Positions 27,068-27,801 of a DNA stretch of 31,016 bases are shown piece by piece. Made by a program: the position numbers and the translations under genes. Source of the stretch: a virus; the IMG/VR virus record IMGVR_UViG_3300031857_000899, positions 1 through 31,016 of that record; one strand, given 5' to 3'. Position 1 is the stretch's first letter. The number at the start of each line of letters is the position of its first letter. Under the pieces are notes generated by a model that worked only from the letters and a program-made list of their open reading frames with translations, was not told where the DNA came from and searched no databases.

Positions 27068-27490
27068 CTAGCCTAGTGGAGCGTCAAGAACCGACCCGAA
27101 CGGTCGAGAAGACGTGCCGTCAAAGCTCGTCGGAGGGACGTATGGTTTCACTTCAAAAGAGCGAAGTAGAGGGTCAACAGGGGTTGGGAGGTCATCTCCG
27201 TACGGATCGTCAATTTGACTAAAGTCATTTACGCGAGAAGAACCAGACCCGTATCTATACGCGCGCTTGTACAGGTCCCTGTACACCGTTTCTCTCATCT
27301 TGTCGCGAGCTTCTGCCTGTTCTCCAGACGCGACGTTCGCGTCTTCTTCAAAGAAGAAATGAAGAACGTCTACTAAATCAGCAGAGTCGAGTTCTGCTAA
27401 GTTTATTCCGCTCGCTACTGCCTTGCCGTTTACGTACGGCCAGAGGTCTATTCCCCACTCGAGGAAACTTCTGGCCGCTCCGTAGGGCGG
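27068..27490 (-). CDS. Tail assembly chaperone, frame-shifted T extension
   Basis: The frame -1 relative to the G gene is open from 27490, just after a TGA, down to 27068. It has no ATG, GTG or TTG before 27298, yet its upstream part reads as ordinary protein: RSFLEWGIDLWPYVNGKAVA then NLAELDSADLVDVLHFFFEE. This is the classic layout of the siphophage G-T product, made when ribosomes slip back one base near the end of G, here between 27490 and the G stop at 27448. The C-terminal part (VYRDLYKRAYRYGSG; PTPVDPLLRSFEVKPYVPP) is polar and Pro-rich. G-T wraps the tape measure before tube assembly. Coordinates give the extension only; the full product starts at 27801. Confidence 0.75.
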   Translation of the reverse strand, partial: PPYGAARSFLEWGIDLWPYVNGKAVASGINLAELDSADLVDVLHFFFEEDANVASGEQAEARDKMRETVYRDLYKRAYRYGSGSSRVNDFSQIDDPYGDDLPTPVDPLLRSFEVKPYVPPTSFDGTSSRPFGSVLDAPLG

Positions 27491-27801
27491 TCAGTGTACT
27501 GCTCCACGAGCCACTCGATGATCTTGCTTAGAGTATCCATCGTTACGATGCGCTCTGGATCTTCTGCAAGCGCGTCAAATCGGCCTCTGCTCTCTGGCAT
27601 AAGAACAGTCTTGAAAAAGTCAGTCACGACTGTAGCAGCCGCTCCCGGGTCATCTTCATTAGAAGATCTTGCAACGAGGTTTAGCACAGTTTTGCCGGGG
27701 ATCTCCGGTCTACAGGTAAACTCTTCATCGTGAAGACGAAACATAATTGGTTCTGCATTTGGGTTTCCGCCTGCTGAGCCAAAGTCCTTGAATCTTGCCA
27801 T
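27448..27801 (-). CDS. Tail assembly chaperone (G)
   Basis: A 117-residue protein. The first half (FRLHDEEFTCRPEIPGKTVL) and the helical middle (VVTDFFKTVLMPESRGRFDA; LSKIIEWLVEQYTD) are typical of actinophage tail assembly chaperones: a short beta start then helices with a phage_TAC-type LxxLxxxL pattern, ending in a Pro/Glu/Ser tail. It precedes the tape measure with the frame-shift extension between, as in lambda G/GT. ATG 27801 has GGAG eight bases ahead, and an extended -10-like element lies at 27855..27863. Confidence 0.82.
   Translation of the reverse strand: MARFKDFGSAGGNPNAEPIMFRLHDEEFTCRPEIPGKTVLNLVARSSNEDDPGAAATVVTDFFKTVLMPESRGRFDALAEDPERIVTMDTLSKIIEWLVEQYTDRPTERPEVSSSGE

Follow-up and report, generated by a model that had tools for sequence, protein, structure and literature searches.

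In the window, i.e., the whole stretch of 31,016 nucleotides that was analysed, a tail assembly chaperone gene (G) overlaps a second frame (T) that has no start codon of its own, and we consider it very probable, judging from the sequence, that a fusion of the two (GT) is made by programmed -1 frameshifting at a single-tRNA tetramer site (Z_ZZN type). The slip most likely takes place on one proline codon, aided by a hairpin, in a family of actinobacterial phages, and the site would be of a weak and rare type. The features concerned are the following.

27801..27448, minus strand: G, tail assembly chaperone, the zero-frame product of 117 aa, assigned by homology and by its position upstream of the tape measure gene
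27502..27505, minus strand: SD-like GGAG, candidate upstream stimulator, 14 nt upstream of the tetramer
27490..27068, minus strand: T frame, a conserved protein without a start, predicted to be expressed only within GT, as its C-terminal part
27487..27484, minus strand: predicted shift tetramer C_CCT, with zero-frame CCT at 27486..27484 and re-pairing on CCC at 27487..27485, conserved in 64 of 64 junctions
27479..27483, minus strand: spacer from shift codon to hairpin, 5 nt to the G.U pair and 6 nt to the first C-G pair
27478..27436, minus strand: downstream hairpin of -25 kcal/mol, with an outer and an inner stem, containing the G stop codon
22574..27016, minus strand: tape measure protein gene, 1480 aa, matching PHROG tape measure families (best E 2.5e-83)

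The genes follow each other in the order G, T and, directly downstream of T, the tape measure gene, so that a second ORF in a shifted frame without its own start lies beside a tape measure gene, as in G/GT systems. The T frame is offset by -1 from G and is immediately preceded by a TGA (27493..27491). The original prediction had described it as open from 27490 and lacking a start before 27298, and this is indeed the case, as ATG, GTG and TTG are all absent from its first 64 codons and its earliest ATG is at 27298. G ends in ...YTDRPTERPEVSSSGE at a TAG (27450..27448), and its codons across the overlap read CGC CCT ACG GAG CGG CCA GAA GTT TCC TCG AGT GGG GAA TAG. None of the in-phase heptamers from 27490 to 27448 is of the X_XXY_YYZ type, which upholds the view that joining G to T needs a -1 shift without a standard heptamer. 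The tape measure protein itself carries tandem repeats of ~45 residues (VWPxIWxGIQWAWNNVIKP) in its C-terminal third, and no tRNA genes were found in the window.

Relatives of both frames are plentiful. G matches annotated tail assembly chaperones in 25 phage records (E down to 4e-36), with identities of 54% to that of DSL-LC01 and 48% to that of Cece, other actinophages being matched too; its homologues occur in Actinomycetia phage DSL-LC01, large Microbacterium phages, Arthrobacter phages and Gordonia phages, and PHROG and Pfam searches with G returned no family match. The T protein matches DSL-LC01 (51%) and Microbacterium phages, and its relatives are encoded in 387 IMG/VR stretches, the best 80 of which were taken; no relative of T turned up in a scan of bacterial genomes. 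After duplicates were dropped, the junction set comprised 64 distinct sequences from isolates and metagenomes, the window included, all with the identical -1 layout. At the DNA level, the best match to DSL-LC01 is limited to 113 bases around the junction (85%), which we read as an early hint that the RNA itself is constrained.

The site itself is tightly bracketed. In all 64 distinct junctions CGC CCN is read in the zero frame (in the window, CGC at 27489..27487 before the tetramer) and CCC in the T frame, i.e., an in-phase Z_ZZN tetramer, C_CCN, is conserved throughout. In one relative (L046) G stops 7 nt downstream, only one codon past C_CCG_GAA, in another (L043) and in two Arthrobacter phages the stop is at +16, and in 11 of the 64, the window among them, the T frame has a stop one codon (6 nt) before the site. 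Owing to the stops in L046 and in these 11 sequences, other places are excluded for a shared mechanism, and CGC-CCN and the next codon are the only ones left, given one mechanism common to the family. A slip from CCT to CCC at 27487..27484, favored from the outset, is thus the only site open to all relatives, and the conserved C-CCT expected of them was found as C_CCN in every case, but its last base varies (CCT 43, CCG 17, CCC 4, CCA 0). A weaker candidate, T-GGG-GAA just before the G stop, had to be dropped, as its sequence is not kept and the G frame is over before that place in 38 of the 64 (stop at +25, +22, +16 or +7). Codon choice at the site departs strongly from the rest of G, where CCA is the commonest proline codon (125/230, 54%) and CGC makes up 51 of 141 arginine codons (36%), vs none and all of the 64, respectively.

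The invariance of this CGC, equal to that of the CC, might point to a shift based on the arginine codon instead, either by a +2 move (a two-base skip) after CGC or by -1 re-pairing of the CGC-tRNA, with the proline lost or changed; the P-site codon may matter, and the preceding base is never T. We regard such a shift as improbable, since C_CCN requires the final C of CGC, which is enough to explain its invariance, and CGC is unable to re-pair on CCG, ACG or GCG. Moreover, the absence of CCA and the predominance of CCY are what re-pairing of Pro-tRNA predicts (PMC4066793). As to the base before CGC (27490 and its equivalents), T is missing from all 64 junctions and, at two-fold codons, C is found in 28 of 28 as compared with 61% elsewhere; the 5' context of the tetramer may be selected as well.

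The downstream stem-loop that the original prediction had proposed to look for exists. In its outer stem CGGCCAGA (27477..27470) pairs with TCTGGCCG (27444..27437) and G27478.U27436 closes the structure, which, at a spacing of 5-6 nt, falls within the range of stimulators (hairpin 4-10 nt downstream, SD 6-17 nt upstream; PMC4066793). Its stability exceeds what the coding sequence requires, with a z of -4.85 against dinucleotide shuffles and of -4.8 against synonymous recodings of T, and equally stable 45-base windows on the same strand are few (5 of 10324). Against synonymous recodings, the hairpins of the relatives give a mean z of -3.5 over 64 sequences, 55 of them below -1.5, and the mean folding energy along the junction in 57 relatives reaches its minimum at +6 from the tetramer. 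These single-sequence folds were used in place of consensus folding, where RNAalifold on the first 32 sequences gave no consensus hairpin, probably because five Microbacterium phages and alternative inner stems blur it. Slid controls speak for the stem (82% paired vs 22-41%), but its covariation is not significant and equals that of shuffled columns. The Arg codon has a synonymous identity of 1.00 and several stem codons have 0.83-0.92, but most codons past the stem are at ~0.25-0.6, i.e., background, so that synonymous conservation gives no sign of a pseudoknot. The large Microbacterium phages, all of the C_CCG_GAA form, are without this stem, and in the Arthrobacter phages Atuin and Mimi CGC CCT ACG is retained, followed at equal distance by an unrelated 8-bp hairpin. 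Upstream, GGAG is suggested as a stimulator by codon usage, given that, of the 57 sequences with Glu at codon -6, 52 use GAG, vs 241/517 (47%) elsewhere in G; this element overlaps the conserved VEE/VEQ peptide of G.

Two forms of the site can be told apart. The window (C_CCT_ACG) and 46 other sequences carry CCY followed by ACN (once by ATG), and all 17 CCG codons are followed by GAA. In the CCY-ACN form only the Pro-tRNA can re-pair; in C_CCG_GAA a G.U pair allows a second tRNA to re-pair on GGA as well. A tree was built from G and T with the junction left out, and on it the site form switches at least 8 times, three of these changes being forced by well supported branches; each form thus appears to have replaced the other repeatedly, moving as a block. 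Behind CCY the hairpins have a median of -21.9 kcal/mol and are more stable than those behind CCG (-15.7; p 2e-5, uncorrected for kinship).

An alternative, which we consider even a little less probable than the CGC-based shift, is that tandem two-tRNA slippage at C_CCG_GAA (the 'threetwotwo' class of PRFect, which names CCCGGAA) is the mechanism of the family and that C_CCT_ACG is a degenerate version of it. Such slippage would suit the 17 of 64 relatives in which every CCG is accompanied by GAA, but the 47 CCY sequences and the C_CCT_ACG of the Arthrobacter relatives stand against it, as a Thr or Met tRNA cannot re-pair on TAC or CAC and as it is the CCY sites that have the stabler hairpins (kinship uncorrected, as above). 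We therefore retain single-tRNA slippage as the preferred reading, and going one step further, we lean toward the idea that in this large family of actinophage tail chaperones the pure single-tRNA C_CCY is the main natural -1 site, swapped repeatedly and as a block with the two-tRNA-like C_CCG_GAA, the hairpins being weaker at sites where the second codon can contribute. If true, the family would offer a natural series for testing the trade-off between shift site and stimulator.

T was held from the start to encode a convincing protein, and the comparison agrees, as it is conserved as protein from the junction on in phages and IMG/VR stretches and shows a coding-type substitution pattern. Within its codons 14-45, all upstream of ATG 27298, changes per codon amount to 0.55 at the third position vs 0.32 at the first and 0.16 at the second. 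That T is translated alone, from this ATG or from a rare ATA/ATT near 27450, the overlap being incidental, is what the GenBank records of DSL-LC01, Cece, Zooman and others would imply by placing its start downstream. We hold this to be very unlikely, less so only than an error in the sequence, given that the 64 codons before ATG 27298 evolve as protein and hold the most conserved stretch of T (EWGIDLWPYVNGKA), that the annotated starts vary between relatives, that the codon near 27450 is ATA, ATT, ATC, GTA or TTA among them, and that the -1 layout and C_CCN occur throughout the family. An error of sequencing or assembly that joins or splits one gene, for which the frame break itself is the only argument, has a negligible probability, the same break being common to 64 distinct sequences from isolates and metagenomes. 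Codon 24 of T after the slip is, in nearly all relatives, GTG (36 of 39 Val codons, e.g., L016 around position 2074) or ATG, and GGAAGAG lies ~6 nt upstream of it in many of them, the window having GCG; an internal start of T at this codon is possible in a subset of relatives.

We infer the shift, its efficiency and the tRNA involved from these patterns and envisage it as follows. The majority of ribosomes would translate G and terminate at the TAG (27450..27448). While CCT (27486..27484) is being decoded, the hairpin 5-6 nt past it would stall the ribosome, pairing of the SD-like GGAG with 16S rRNA may pull the ribosome backward as well, and the Pro-tRNA, in the A or the P site, would release CCT and re-pair with CCC one base back. 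Translation would then go on from TAC at 27484 (TAC GGA GCG ...) through 27071 to the stop at 27070..27068, giving a GT of ~244 aa with the junction ...QYTDRP-YGAARSFLEWGIDLW... The tryptic peptide expected across it is IIEWLVEQYTDRPYGAAR rather than the RPYGAAR first put forward, because trypsin rarely cuts R-P. Together with G, GT would presumably have a lambda-like role, in which the tape measure protein is loaded and the subunits of the tail tube are brought in.

Public records (L002-L007, L048, L049, L051 and L052) give T as a separate hypothetical protein with varying downstream starts and no join, and the record of phage Phendrix (L047) has the join. It appears that T is annotated separately and from a wrong start because annotators and PRFect depend on heptamers or short repeat motifs; sites of the C_CCY type would be missed by standard motif searches. 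A tetramer ranked weak in E. coli is retained across many phages beside a strong hairpin, and C_CCT, C_CCC, C_CCG_GAA and the G_GGA_AAC of Gordonia phages are natural variants in one homologous gene, a set that could be used to measure the effects of slip site, hairpin and SD-like element on the ratio of G to GT.

In its arrangement and presumed role, the system would be that of lambda G/GT, in that two overlapping genes immediately precede the tape measure gene and the fusion is of similar general size (PMC5009743), but the lambda-type sites are two-tRNA heptamers and a single-tRNA tetramer C_CCY with a hairpin is unusual. The Z_ZZN tetramer is the minimal -1 shift site (PMC5009743), and the natural cases discussed in PMC4066793 are A_AAG, U_UUY and A_AAA in insertion sequences. 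Known Z_ZZN sites such as those of IS1222 and Bacillus cdd at A_AAG resemble the predicted site in that one tRNA moves from ZZN to ZZZ and a stimulator is needed. In E. coli, C_CC.U and C_CC.C shift >4 times above background with a stimulator, and C_CCA and C_CCG are weak, barely shift-prone (PMC4066793, Sharma 2014). The general weakness of C_CCN tetramers there counts against the proposed site, and the relatives follow the same order (C_CCU, C_CCC > C_CCA, C_CCG). In the literature examined we came across no natural C_CCY site in a tail chaperone gene, an absence that is weak evidence. From annotated actinophage genes PRFect proposed CCCGGAA as 'threetwotwo' (PMC10885494), which is the C_CCG_GAA of 17 relatives, including Cece, Pumpernickel, Zooman, Big4 and A3Wally, whereas the CCCTACG of the window matches no motif named in that paper. 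The Listeria phages PSA, A118 and A500 likewise slip a Pro-tRNA in a phage tail or capsid gene (PMC5009743), but by +1 at CCC_UGA, with a stop codon or pseudoknot, and in a tail shaft or capsid gene rather than a chaperone. Finally, because the more distant Gordonia relatives of G (L047, L048, L050 and L052) have canonical two-tRNA heptamers, A_AAA_AAA or G_GGA_AAC, roughly a codon before the corresponding position, it appears that the shift site was replaced in evolution and the fusion kept.
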